Positions 23,042 through 28,709 of a stretch of DNA of 64,000 nucleotides are shown in pieces. The notes under the pieces were generated by a model, which did no database searches, was not told the DNA's origin, and worked only from the letters and a program-made list of their open reading frames with translations. Every line of letters begins with the position of its first letter. Position 1 is the stretch's first letter. Source of the DNA: Luteibacter mycovicinus (lineage in GTDB: Bacteria > Pseudomonadota > Gammaproteobacteria > Xanthomonadales > Rhodanobacteraceae); contig NZ_JQNL01000001.1 of the NCBI RefSeq assembly GCF_000745235.1, positions 806,001 to 870,000 of the forward strand. The letters are read 5' to 3'. Both the position numbers and the translations under genes were made by a program.

Positions 23042-24076
23042 TCAGAAACCGAGGCCGGACTTCGCGCCCGACGCGTGCGAGATGAGCGAAGCCATCACCG
23101 CCTTCTGCACGTGCAGGCGGTTTTCGGCTTCGTCGATGGCGATGCACGCCGGCGAGTCCATCACCGCGTCCGTCGCCTTGATGTTCCGGCGCAGCGGGAG
23201 GCAGTGGCTGAACAGGCCGTTGTCGGTGAGCGCCATCTTGGCCTCGTCGACGATGAAGTGCTTGTTGGCGTCACGAATGGCCTTTTCTTCGTCCCAGCGA
23301 CCGAAGTAGGGAATCGCGCCCCAGCTCTTCGCGTAGATCACGTGCGCGCCGCTGTACGCCGATTCGATGTCATGTGACACCTGCAGCGAGCCGCCGTTCT
23401 CGGCCGCGTTCCGCTTCGCGAATTCCATGTAGCGCTCGTCGAGGATGTATTCCGGCGTCGGGCACAGCAGGGTCACGTCCATGCCCATCCTGGTCGCGAT
23501 CATCAGCGCCGAGTTGGCCACCGCCGTGTTCAGCGGCTTCGGATGATAGGTCCACGTCAGCACGTATTTCTTGTTCTGGAGATCGCCCAGATGCTCCTTC
23601 ATGGCCAGCGCATGGGCCAGCTCCTGACAGGGATGGGTGATCGTCTCCATGTTGATCACCGGCACCGTGGCATAGCGCGCGAACGCCTTCAGCACGATGT
23701 CCTGACGATCCACCTGCCAGTCGACGAATTTGGGGAAGGCGCGCACGGCGATGATGTCCGCGTAGCGCGACAGCACCTGGGCGACCTCGGCGATGTGCTC
23801 TTCCGTATCGCCGTCCATCACCGTACCGACCTCGAACTCGATCGGCCACGCGTCCTTGCCCGGGGAAAGCACCACGGCGTGCCCGCCCAGCTGGAACGCG
23901 CCCAGCTCGAAGCTGGTCCGGGTCCGCATGGAGGGGTTGAAGAACATCAGCGCGATCGACTTGCCAGCCAGCTGCTGACCCTGCGGCGAGCGCTTGAATT
24001 CGGCGGCCTGCTCGAGCAGGGCGTCGATCTCGGCGCGGCTGTAGTCCTGGGTATTGAGGAAGTGGCGAACGGTCAT
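23042..24076 (-). CDS. argF': N-acetyl-L-ornithine carbamoyltransferase (AOTCase)
   Basis: A 344-residue transcarbamylase. The carbamoyl-phosphate loop reads FFNPSMRTRTSFELGAFQLG, where ordinary ornithine transcarbamylases have STRTR. The proline-rich DAWPIEFEVGTVMDG and the C-terminal HCLPLRRNIKATDAVMD are features of the N-acetylornithine-specific enzyme first described in Xanthomonas campestris. It carbamoylates acetylornithine to acetylcitrulline, so the acetyl group is removed one step later than in most bacteria. First gene of the block; its leader contains a candidate attenuator. Confidence 0.95.
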   Translation of the reverse strand: MTVRHFLNTQDYSRAEIDALLEQAAEFKRSPQGQQLAGKSIALMFFNPSMRTRTSFELGAFQLGGHAVVLSPGKDAWPIEFEVGTVMDGDTEEHIAEVAQVLSRYADIIAVRAFPKFVDWQVDRQDIVLKAFARYATVPVINMETITHPCQELAHALAMKEHLGDLQNKKYVLTWTYHPKPLNTAVANSALMIATRMGMDVTLLCPTPEYILDERYMEFAKRNAAENGGSLQVSHDIESAYSGAHVIYAKSWGAIPYFGRWDEEKAIRDANKHFIVDEAKMALTDNGLFSHCLPLRRNIKATDAVMDSPACIAIDEAENRLHVQKAVMASLISHASGAKSGLGF

Positions 24077-24136
24077 GGCGGTCCAGATCGGTCGGTGGCC
24101 CGGGGGCCGTGGGTGGAATATCAGGAATCGGAAACG

Positions 24137-24165
24137 AAAAAACCCGGCACGGGGCCGGGTTTTTT
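24137..24165 (-). terminator. Perfect intrinsic terminator in the argF' leader (candidate attenuator)
   Basis: AAAAAACCCGGC and GCCGGGTTTTTT form a 12-bp perfect stem with a 5-base loop and a six-T tail, 60 bp upstream of the argF' start. The next upstream minus-strand gene has its own terminator at 24782-24811, so no recognised gene needs this one. It therefore probably acts inside the arg operon leader. The stem is symmetrical and could also stop plus-strand transcription, but no plus-strand gene leads into it. Confidence 0.85.
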
Positions 24166-24243
24166 AGTCGATGCGAATGAAATGCGCGCGACAGCCTACC
24201 CGGCCGAATGTCCGATGTACGGTCGACGAGCACGCGACGTCAT
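24153..24243 (-). promoter_or_regulatory. Candidate arginine-responsive transcription attenuator
   Basis: Reading toward argF', a short open frame with CGT-GCT-CGT-CGA (Arg-Ala-Arg-Arg) ends at TAG (24198-24196). The bases over its stop, GGCCGGGT (24205-24198), are perfectly complementary to ACCCGGCC (24160-24153), the 5' arm of the terminator. A ribosome stalled at the Arg codons (24234-24223) would leave GGCCGGGT free to form the antiterminator. One that reaches the stop would cover it and let the terminator form. This is the geometry of amino-acid attenuation. It is inferred from sequence only, and the leader start has a weak ribosome site. Confidence 0.5.
24196..24243 (-). CDS. Candidate arginine leader peptide
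   Basis: A 15-residue frame, MTSRARRPYIGHSAG, from ATG at 24243 to TAG at 24196. Three of four consecutive codons are Arg. An in-frame ATG at 24255 would add MAAG. Neither start has a strong ribosome site; GCTGGG directly precedes the inner ATG. Arg-rich frames are common by chance in GC-rich DNA, so the support comes from its position relative to the antiterminator and terminator rather than from the peptide alone. Confidence 0.35.
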   Translation of the reverse strand: MTSRARRPYIGHSAG

Positions 24244-24415
24244 CCCAGCGGCCATGCGGGCGCTAGTGAAGACAACGGCGGTGTAGACAGTATGGGACAC
24301 GGCAGGGTCGGCGAAGATGGAACCCCGATCATGCCGGGATTTGGTGCGTTGCGCAACATTGCTTCGGGCTCGGGCTCGGCTTCGCCATCGCATGGGGGTG
24401 CTTGCGCTGAGGCAC

Positions 24416-24507
24416 GGGAGCGGTCGGCTGCCATTCTTGTCGCTAAGTCCTCCTACGGCCTTCGCCTTCGTGCGGAAGCGCTCCAAGAACGGCAGCCGAC
24501 CACTCCC
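24416..24507 (-). repeat. Structured hairpin repeat, copy A
   Basis: Arms 24416-24439 and 24484-24507 pair over 24 positions, with the two non-Watson-Crick positions being G-T wobbles when read on the minus strand. They enclose a 44-nt core (24440-24483) that is 42/44 identical to the core of copy B. The two core differences are a reciprocal A/T swap consistent with a preserved base pair. The outer arm sequence is unrelated to that of copy B but self-complementary. It could be a non-coding RNA motif or a mobile palindromic DNA element. Confidence 0.75.
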
Positions 24508-24653
24508 TTCCAACGCGACGGGGCACGTGGAAGACGAGCAAATCGCGGAACCTGCGCGCGCCGCGGTGATCGACATCGTGGGCAGCACCGCACGCACGGA
24601 TCACACCTCATGCTGCTCGCCGCTTTCCCCACCCGCAACCTCTTGGTTGGGAG

Positions 24654-24743
24654 GGCGGGGGCGGGTGTCGTTCTCGGAGCGCTTCCGCACGTAGGCGAAG
24701 GCCGAAGGAGGACTTAGCGACGAGAATGGCACCCGCCCCCGCC
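24654..24743 (+). repeat. Structured hairpin repeat, copy B
   Basis: Arms 24654-24676 and 24721-24743 pair over 23 positions with two G-T wobbles on the plus strand, around a 44-nt core (24677-24720). The core starts GAGCGCTTCCGCACG and ends GGAGGACTTAGCGA. Within it, GGC-GAAG-GCC can form a small inner hairpin. It is divergently oriented relative to copy A, with 146 bp between the two copies. The outer arm is G-rich on the 5' side and C-rich on the 3' side. Confidence 0.75.
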
Positions 24744-24767
24744 CCCGCCCCCGCCCCCCGCCCGTGC
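24731..24767. repeat. Short CCCCCG hexamer tandem
   Basis: About four to five imperfect copies of CCCCCG overlap the 3' arm of structured repeat B and continue to the C-rich CCCGTGCCCC. A likely site of replication slippage. The rest of the 756-bp gap 24077-24832 contains the two structured repeats, the candidate arg leader and a terminator; no convincing protein-coding gene was seen in it. Confidence 0.6.
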
Positions 24768-24781
24768 CCCGACGCGCGCCC

Positions 24782-24811
24782 AAAAAAAGGCCGCGATCGC
24801 TCGCGGCCTTT
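24782..24811 (-). terminator. Intrinsic terminator with GCGATCGC core
   Basis: AAAGGCCGCGA-TCGC-TCGCGGCCTTT forms an 11-bp stem with a seven-T tail on the minus strand, downstream of the glycine-zipper gene. It shares its inner CGCGA-TCGC-TCGCG with the terminators at 28796 and 42598. Confidence 0.85.
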
Positions 24812-24832
24812 CTCGACATCATGGCGAGGCGG

Positions 24833-25393
24833 TCAGTCCGCCGGCGCCACGTTGACGCGGACCCGCAGGCGCTCGCCCGGGTCGTAGTTCAGGCGCGAGA
24901 CGTAGACCTCACCGCGATATCGGTATTCGACATCGTAGCCGGCGATGCGGCGCTGCTCGGAGACCGAGCTCACGTCGCGGCAGCGGGTTTCGGTGCTCTC
25001 GTAAGTGCGGTCGCCGTTGTGGGAGATGTTGTTGCCCACGGCGCCGCCGGCCACCGCGCCAACCACGGTGGCGGCCTTACGGCCGTCGCCCTTGCCGACG
25101 GTATTGCCCAGGACACCACCGACCACCGCGCCGAGGATGGTGCCGGCGGTGCTGTTGCCACTGGACTCACGACGGACGACTGGCTGGTCGTAGCACTCCT
25201 GACGCGGCGTCTCGACACGCGCGACGCCGTAGACGGGGTCCACGCGCAGCACGTCGGCCCAGCCGAAATGGGTGTTGTCATCCGGACCCACGGCACCCGG
25301 GGGTGGCGGCGGTGGCGCATAACGGCCGTCCTGGGCGCTGGCGCCAGAGGCGAAAACGGCGAGGATGAGCGCAGGGATAAGCAGGCGAGACAT
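24833..25393 (-). CDS. Glycine-zipper 2TM-domain outer-membrane/periplasmic protein
   Basis: A 186-residue exported protein. Signal peptide [20 protein letters not shown], a proline run ([12 protein letters not shown]), then a glycine-zipper segment [20 protein letters not shown] followed by [13 protein letters not shown], as in the 17-kDa surface antigen/SlyB-type family. A C-terminal beta-rich domain follows ([20 protein letters not shown]). Such proteins sit in the envelope, but specific roles are rarely known. There is no lipobox cysteine, so it is probably periplasmic or membrane-inserted rather than a lipoprotein. The ATG at 25393 has GGAGG eight bases upstream. Confidence 0.87.
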
Positions 25394-25597
25394 GTAGGAA
25401 AACCTCCAGCCAGGCGCACGGGCGCGCCTACTGGTACGCATTTCATCAAGTTCACGCTGAATCCACGCTTAGAACCTCGCGCGGGCGAATTCACGCACGA
25501 TGTCAACCGATTCGCGCCACGTGCGTGCGCCCGGGAAGGCGGCGGGCTTGTTACTATCTGCGACCGGCCGCCCGCCGCGCCCGTCCACGGATCCACG

Positions 25598-27570: not shown

Positions 27571-28386
27571 TTAAGCCGCCATCCTCTCAAACTCGGCTGG
27601 CGGGCGGTAGTCGAGCGCGGAGTGCAGGCGCTCGTGGTTGTAATAGCGAACCAGATAGTCGATCGCGTCTTGTGATGCCAGAGCTCGGGTCGGGAAGGTT
27701 TCCTCGCCGAACCACTCCTGTTTAAGGCTTCGGAAGACGCGTTCGACGACGGCGTTGTCCCAGCAGTTCCCCTTTCGGCTCATGCTTTGAACGATGCCGT
27801 GCCGGGCCAGATGTTGGGTGTAGCGATCGGAGGTGTACGAGGCGCCCTGATCGGTGTGCATGACTAACCCGGGAGCCGGCTGGCGCAAGCCGATGGCCAG
27901 TTCGTTGGCCTTGATGGCCAGTCGTGAATCGGGCGTGTGGCTTGTGGCCCAGCCGACGATTCGCCGGGAGTACAGATCGACCACGATGGCCAGATAGAGG
28001 AAGCCCTGGCCCGTTCGGATGAAGGTGATGTCGCCGGCCCAGGTCTGGTTGGGACGCGCCGGATCGAACTGTCGGTTGACGATATTTTCGGCCGGTGCAG
28101 GTTTCGTGTTGCGTCTGGCGTAATGAAACCGCTTCTTCCTCAGTCGAATGTCCAGCCGGCGCATCAGTGTCGCCGCCCGTTCGCGACCCACACGAAAGCC
28201 GTGCCGGCACAGGCTGCGCGCAAGGCGGCGTGCGCCATAGCTGCGGCGACTATCCCGATGAATGGCCAGAGCGGTCTGGGCAAGCCCTTCGTCGATGGCG
28301 GGAGCCGCCTTGACGGGGGCGTAGTGCCGGCTCCGGGGCCAGCCAAGAATCGCGTAGACCTGTCGTATCGACAAATCCCCTCTCAC
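27571..28386 (-). CDS. IS3-family transposase OrfB (copy 2)
   Basis: A 271-residue integrase-core (rve) transposase. The N-terminal HTH_21-type region (RQVYAILGWPRSRHY, SRRSYGARRLARSLCRHGFRV) leads to the DDE core: TWAGDITFI, HTDQGASY and VVERVFRSLKQEW, with 35 residues between the second Asp and the Glu. The start is GTG at 28386, overlapping the OrfA stop (GTGA). The frame stays open upstream to an A7 run at 28446-28440 in OrfA, so a -1 frameshift there would give the OrfAB fusion transposase usual in this family. Confidence 0.95.
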   Translation of the reverse strand: MRGDLSIRQVYAILGWPRSRHYAPVKAAPAIDEGLAQTALAIHRDSRRSYGARRLARSLCRHGFRVGRERAATLMRRLDIRLRKKRFHYARRNTKPAPAENIVNRQFDPARPNQTWAGDITFIRTGQGFLYLAIVVDLYSRRIVGWATSHTPDSRLAIKANELAIGLRQPAPGLVMHTDQGASYTSDRYTQHLARHGIVQSMSRKGNCWDNAVVERVFRSLKQEWFGEETFPTRALASQDAIDYLVRYYNHERLHSALDYRPPAEFERMAA

Positions 28387-28709
28387 CTTTTGGACGATCT
28401 CGGCTTTCGCAAGATGGCGGCCAGGTGAGAGGGCAACTGTTTTTTTAGGACGTCACGCTCCTGTGCCAACACCGCACGAGCGTCTTCAGAGGCTTTCAGC
28501 TGTCCCTGAAGCTGCGCGATGAGGCGCCGCTGCTCCACCGGATCGTCCGGTATCGCCGCTTGCCGTTCACGCCATTCCTCCACCCATCGCCTCAGGGCCG
28601 TCGGCCCCAGACCCATCATCTGAGCGGCTTGAGGCGGGGTATATCCCACCTCGACCACCAGTCGTATTGCCTCGGCTTTGACCGCTGCCGGAATTTTTCT
28701 ATGAGCCAT
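28383..28709 (-). CDS. IS3-family transposase OrfA (copy 2)
   Basis: A 108-residue DNA-binding protein. A helix-turn-helix (AIRLVVEVGYTPPQAAQMMG, then LGPTALRRWVEEW) binds the IS ends, and a C-terminal heptad region (RRLIAQLQGQLKASEDARAV) forms a leucine-zipper-like coil for multimerisation. CTAAAAAAACAG near the end (28447-28436) is a good -1 slippery site in phase with OrfB. ATG at 28709 follows GAGGTGAATC. Confidence 0.94.
   Translation of the reverse strand: MAHRKIPAAVKAEAIRLVVEVGYTPPQAAQMMGLGPTALRRWVEEWRERQAAIPDDPVEQRRLIAQLQGQLKASEDARAVLAQERDVLKKQLPSHLAAILRKPRSSKR

Follow-up and report, generated by a model that had tools for sequence, protein, structure and literature searches.

The two hairpins that lie between positions 24416 and 24744 of the window, the 64,000-nucleotide stretch of Luteibacter mycovicinus DNA analysed here, are probably the ends of one small, non-autonomous palindromic mobile unit of a REPIN-like kind. 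The sequence-only reading of this DNA had offered a choice between a non-coding RNA and a mobile palindromic element. The mobile element has the better support and is more likely than a plain non-coding RNA, since the hairpins are dispersed in many copies with recurring end subtypes and a shared outer motif, their occurrence among genomes is patchy, and a close relative has an empty site. Mobility is read here from sequence comparison, and not from units seen to move.

The hairpin pair in the window

The unit and its surroundings comprise the following features:

23042..24076, minus strand: left flanking gene, carbamoyltransferase (OTCace domains)
24372..24391, plus strand: outer motif GGGCTCGGCTTCGCCATCGC, terminal-inverted-repeat-like, inward-pointing, 25 nt outside copy A
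24416..24507, minus strand: copy A, a 92-nt hairpin of end subtype 2 (GGCTG stem), with a 24-bp stem and a 44-nt core at 24440-24483
24508..24652, no strand: 145-nt interior separating copies A and B
24653..24744, plus strand: copy B, a 92-nt hairpin of end subtype 1 (GGGTG stem), with its core at 24677-24720
24729-24766: GC-rich CCCCCG stretch that leaves the copy B stem, at the expected place of a right outer motif
24781..24812: terminator-like inverted repeat AAAAAAA-GGCCGCG..CGCGGCC-TTT, seen by eye, adjoining the right-hand gene
24833..25441, minus strand: right flanking gene, glycine-zipper protein

The two elements are divergent, as first described, with arms at 24416-24439/24484-24507 in copy A and 24653-24676/24721-24744 in copy B. 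The closing stems are also confirmed: the arms, of 24 nt each, surround 44 nt and are 92% Watson-Crick paired, the stem of copy B being one pair longer than had been claimed. The cores are identical at 42 of 44 positions and differ only by the reported reciprocal A/T swap at 24692 and 24705, and in both copies every non-Watson-Crick stem cell is G-T in the motif sense. The window hairpins fold with z = -9.3 and -8.5, and none of 200 shuffles was equally stable. No match to the outer motif was found beyond copy B, and the window unit has only one such motif. The terminator-like repeat also occurs in relatives that lack the pair (spacers L094, L109 and L112) and is thus not part of the unit.

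An insertion sequence of two genes, whose domains are HTH_Tnp_1 and rve, also lies in the window (27571-28709, minus strand), 2.8 kb from copy B; we take it to be IS3-like. This gene pair showed no linkage to hairpins at other loci.

Copies and genomic range

The hairpin type of copies A and B, here called type S, is present in 28 copies in its own genome of 4.63 Mb (E <= 6.2e-14); the same search returned 43 rows, of which the other 15 are chance or short hits that include both arms of copy B itself. The sequence-only reading was to be abandoned if no further copies with covarying stems existed; many such copies were found, and it is not refuted on this point.

In the multi-genome searches, where 11-14 first-look candidates were scored per genome under stricter filters and the copy numbers and ranges in relatives are therefore lower bounds, an S match at E <= 0.001 was obtained in 12 of 61 genomes, own genome included. 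One of the 12, G023 from a third genus, has a 33-nt match only (E 8e-4) and no recognisable copy. With a covariance model, S is detected in 11 of the 299 genomes from the order, which belong to two of 85 genera (Luteibacter and one related genus), and in one of 369 genomes of a class-level draw, namely its own genome. A scan of a species-genome collection with a 35-base pattern matched 11 stretches, all from Luteibacter; the shorter-core variants in G032 escape this pattern, and the scan is therefore no proof of absence elsewhere. Collections of plasmids, phages and viral contigs contained no match to the hairpins. Among the genomes examined, the occurrence of S is patchy.

Hairpins as the two ends of a unit

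Most of the S copies in the own genome (24 of 28) are arranged in 12 outward-facing pairs, ten of them narrow, with 73-213 nt between the hairpins, and two wide, at 971 and 1856 nt. Across 22 outward pairs examined the interior ranges from 61 nt to 3 kb, and the interiors of the own-genome pairs align poorly mid-way. The outer stems of the window pair had been called entirely different in sequence. They do differ, and what they represent is two recurring end subtypes: nine of the ten narrow pairs, the window pair included, combine one GGGTG with one GGCTG hairpin, and the tenth (L041) has two GGCTG hairpins (P about 0.03 for nine or more under random pairing). This recurrence indicates that the stem difference is inherited, and was not made anew in the window. 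Among ten pairs in relatives, judged by eye, seven have clearly different ends (G032, 4/4; G021, 2/2; G001, 1/1), and the three in G006, G012 and G022 have ends that are not clearly different. Since the subtypes differ within pairs, the best reading is that a single unit has copy A at one end and copy B at the other. The genes around the pairs give a hint of convergent spacers (10 of 18 simple pairs), as called by a crude open reading frame script that produced wrong-strand frames in the window.

Other hairpin types at the same intergenic addresses

The spacer between the window's flanking genes is readable in 19 of 23 genomes, own genome included, and two of the relatives carry hairpin pairs of other types there. 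G005 has two copies of a 246-nt hairpin (type X) and G011 two copies of a 148-nt hairpin (type Y), both alongside REP words; seven other genomes have REP words, and nine have none of these. Both types are likewise scattered: of 61 genomes, 20 have X and 13 have Y, the own genome being among those that lack Y. They have in common with S the outer motif (carried also by X in the own genome), the pairing and the strand bias, and the Y words TTCCGCAC and GGAGGACC are close to the S words TTCCGCAC and GGAGGACT/C.

The spacer between ptsI and an acyl-CoA dehydrogenase gene, of which at least the first part was seen in 22 genomes, holds by blastn S in three, X in two and Y in one; 13 of these genomes have REP words in it, and six of the 13 an inverted pair of them. 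The match to ptsI in G005 is split in two (G005:C1:1969614-1970970), and one piece has a stop codon, reflecting either a broken gene or a sequencing error.

The flank of the window locus in G005 is 92% identical to that of the own genome. Eight more own S loci were sought in G005 by synteny offset and five were found (L036, L038 and L043 were not). At these G005 has an X pair (L033), a pair of REP words (L039), an empty site (L037) and a sequence assigned to no type (L042), and at L031 a single REP stands at a single-S site and a single X at a wide S pair. An X pair thus takes the place of an S pair at two spacers, and X stands at an S address at three of seven sites, the window locus included, which we judge to exceed chance, the judgement depending on the number of available spacers.

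At one further spacer, S hairpins surround different genes in two species (L072:1797-4956 and L089:2059-4582). G006 has there a peptidoglycan-binding protein with an X-Tfes XVIPCD domain, and G012 shows, by eye, a tandem duplication of hairpin and gene.

Outer motif and interior gene

The outer motif, GGCTCGGCTTYGCC, is separated from the hairpins by 24-36 nt on their outer side. In the form GGCTCGGCTTYGCCNTCGC it has 30 matches in the own genome at two or fewer mismatches, against five for a reversed control. At one mismatch or fewer there are 24 matches, and 23 of these face inward at 24-36 nt from the outer side of an S or X hairpin; the six matches with two mismatches include none so placed. 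A slightly longer form occurs in 18 of 23 genomes, and the reversed-pattern control gave no match in any of the 23. For type Y, the coordinates place 8 of the 17 outer-motif matches listed in G010 at about 22-33 nt from the outer side of a listed Y copy. The motif may mark the terminus of the unit; it is present at both ends in some units only.

Inward-pointing pairs of the motif also stand about 110-205 nt apart at G006:C1:339886-339997, G006:C2:632036-632211 and G021:C2:492498-492700. These are possibly units with other hairpins or none.

Four S pairs are more than 900 nt wide, and all of them except L089 enclose a gene of 86-90 amino acids:

L031:4994-5263, minus strand: 86-90-aa gene inside a wide S pair
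L032:3992-4261, plus strand: 86-90-aa gene inside a wide S pair
L072:1992-2234, minus strand: 86-90-aa gene inside a wide S pair

Paralogs occur in 17 of 23 genomes of the genus, with up to 20 matches in one genome, and the DNA upstream of the gene is 69-70% identical between two species. The product belongs to no Pfam or NCBIfam family. A role as the mobilising factor was considered; an S or X match was present at 7 and a Y match at none of 30 loci fetched around such genes, and the gene is read as a possible passenger.

Covariation and strand bias

An alignment of 66 distinct S copies was used to examine the fold; it leaves out L055 and L065, which have no copy matching the regular expression, and some copies of G012 and G032. 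Double compensatory changes are found at 25 of 33 base pairs, and 96.4% of cells are paired. The 324 double-changed cells compare with 92±9.2 in shuffles, none of 500 being as high, and with at most 56 in slid-partner controls, where 31.7-50.8% of cells are paired; both controls ignore the relatedness of the copies. In the motif (outward) sense, G.T and T.G cells in the stem number 121 and A.C and C.A cells 20, split as 56:3 in the own genome and 65:17 in relatives. The selection on structure claimed for the window pair accordingly finds support, as a constrained single-stranded fold, in covariation against two controls and in the bias of G.T over A.C.

The core is also constrained. Its pair 14/31 is G-C in 33, C-G in 29, G-T in three and C.A in one of the 66 copies, and pair 3/42 is G-C in 58 and A-T in eight. 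Beside pair 14/31 lies a 3x3 internal loop, the ends of which are G.A in 61 and A.G in 58 of the copies, and the loop of the hairpin reads CGNAG in 61. The words TCCG.A and GAGG are invariant. The A/T swap that separates the window copies falls in the middle of the internal loop and not in a Watson-Crick helix, so that while the swap itself is real, the pairing deduced from it is doubtful: the two positions are canonical (A-T, T-A or T-G) in 25 copies and G.G, A.G, G.A or T.T in 41. The swap follows the end subtypes loosely only.

Types X and Y, aligned from those copies in the fetched loci with a query coverage of 75% or more, behave similarly. In the outward sense G.T cells outnumber A.C cells by 52:6 in 28 copies of X and by 113:10 in 53 copies of Y, on structures predicted for the sense strand, which favours G.T; 42 of 76 and 14 of 40 pairs, respectively, are doubly changed. 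The sense strand of both types folds better than the antisense strand. An excess of G.T over A.C is unexpected from a strand-blind process, and therefore suggests either that a fold of the outward strand is selected or that mutation there is strand-biased. Tolerance of G.T fits DNA and RNA alike, and it could partly reflect such strand-biased mutation.

Proposed mechanism and alternative explanations

In the mechanism that we propose, each complete end would consist of an inward outer motif GGGCTCGGCTTCGCCATCGC, about 30 nt, and then a strong outward-facing hairpin, with a short variable interior between the ends that bears a gene in some units. An enzyme working in trans may recognise the hairpins in their folded, single-stranded form, and units may be copied or exchanged between intergenic addresses. 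The recognised strand is probably DNA, as judged by the C-GNA-G loops, by the variable interiors and by the scan of the window region, which found no promoter. The RNA form of a C-GNA-G mini-hairpin is much weaker than the DNA form. Loops of this sort belong to a kind of unusually stable DNA mini-hairpins described in PMC10527192, which treats both DNA and RNA mini-hairpins and gives a melting point of 88.5 C for the DNA mini-hairpin CGCGAAGCG. By eye, the five loci with open reading frame lists showed no recognisable transposase gene between their hairpins, and no target-site duplication was clear in the few units and one empty site inspected. Our analysis found no mobilising enzyme, and nothing ties the hairpins to the genome's one Y1 transposase (RAYT). 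More tentatively, S, X and Y may be hairpin modules that can stand in for one another, all belonging to a single superfamily of mobile, structured single-stranded DNA, which has fixed addresses, swaps types at them and is served by undescribed non-RAYT machinery.

Long quasi-palindromes are hot spots for template-switch correction, and an origin of the stems by this process, with no functional meaning, would account for the fast co-change of both arms. Template switching is strand-blind, however, and should give about as many G.T as A.C cells, against the observed 121:20 (S), 113:10 (Y) and 52:6 (X); it also leaves core pairs 14/31 and 3/42 and the outer motif unexplained. We have set it aside on the strand bias and consider it very improbable. 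The hairpins might also be structured RNAs, either small RNAs in divergent orientation or decoy RNAs, with transcription running outward from the interiors and dispersal as a by-product of intergenic duplication. The outward-sense G.T bias and the covariation fit RNA as well as DNA, covariation and G-U bias alone being no proof of RNA, and terminator-like repeats lie outside several copies by eye. Against this, a consensus scan of 24080-24850, which covers one copy pair, found no sigma-70-like promoter, the own-genome interiors vary from 73 to 1856 nt with their poorly aligned middles, and presence is patchy with an empty orthologous site. Rfam also speaks against it, and in line with the earlier remark that no named family matches: the whole window and five related loci gave no match at the gathering threshold. 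The best match below threshold is MIR1437 (29.4 bits against 168, E 0.005); such matches, mostly animal or plant miRNA hairpins, are read as chance. On balance an RNA role seems unlikely.

Another explanation is that these are ordinary or divergent REPINs moved by the resident RAYT. A PF01797 match is present in all 22 near-complete Luteibacter genomes, exactly one in 20 of 23 genomes, and the own-genome PF01797 protein is a REP-associated tyrosine transposase by NF047646; moreover, spacers that hold hairpins in one species contain REP words and inverted REP pairs in others. The PF01797 loci themselves point elsewhere, since none of the 25 fetched (up to 3 kb each, blastn) has an S, X or Y hairpin and 24 hold GTAGGAGC/GTGGGAGC words. 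In addition, only 3 of 28 own S copies have GTAG or its complement (CTAC) 12 nt or less from the stem foot, and the hairpins measure 92-246 nt, against the 20-40 bp given for REPs in PMC3733652. The hairpins thus share with GTAG-type REPs and REPINs the dispersed inverted pair, but neither the GTAG foot tag nor the linkage to RAYT. RAYT is unlikely to be their mover, and we regard this explanation as improbable, more so than RNA.

If the mobile-unit reading is correct, the known palindromic mobile elements gain a group whose hairpins are large (up to 246 nt), covarying, strand-specific and absent from Rfam. Close relatives that carry differing hairpin types in one and the same spacer would then amount to a natural experiment, and the spread of extragenic palindromes without a linked transposase would become testable.

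Comparison with known systems

There is a close likeness to the REPINs of Bertels and Rainey (2011, PMC3116915), which, like S, are described as extragenic, multi-copy inverted-pair units with compensatory hairpin changes, thought to be non-autonomous, with single copies read as remnants. In that description a REPIN consists of two REPs around a spacer, forms one hairpin and clusters beside RAYT genes, whereas each end of S, X or Y has its own hairpin of 92-246 nt and an extra outer motif, there are two end subtypes, and no link to RAYT loci was found. The TIR repeats of the TIRtrons of Stenotrophomonas maltophilia (BMC Genomics 2013, PMC3733652), compared here by description only, are similar in that they are longer inverted repeats, some self-complementary and often in dimers, that are unrelated to GTAG REPs. 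Those repeats flank a gene for a tyrosine transposase (TIRYT), and no such Y1 gene was found beside S, X or Y; the own genome's one PF01797 locus is without a hairpin, and a divergent enzyme could escape the search.

MRSC-65-2 (NAR 2024, PMC11109978), also compared by description only, resembles S in its single long covarying stem and its often dozens of copies per genome, and its authors leave open whether it acts as DNA or RNA. It is reported for diverse phyla and has a UYCCGG repeat, whereas S is found in two genera and carries TCCG.A and GAGG. Integron attC sites are alike in being folded single-stranded DNA hairpins that keep their structure as the sequence drifts; the attC foot has an RYYYAAC box (PMC8632094), and the foot of the S stem is variable with no such box. 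As regards MITEs, the outer motif stands inward at a fixed distance in 23 of 24 cases, and at both ends in some units only.

The literature naming Luteibacter that was searched held no published description of these repeats. Compensatory change has already been reported for REPIN hairpins, so elements of this kind are known; the S/X/Y variant appears to be new within the literature searched.
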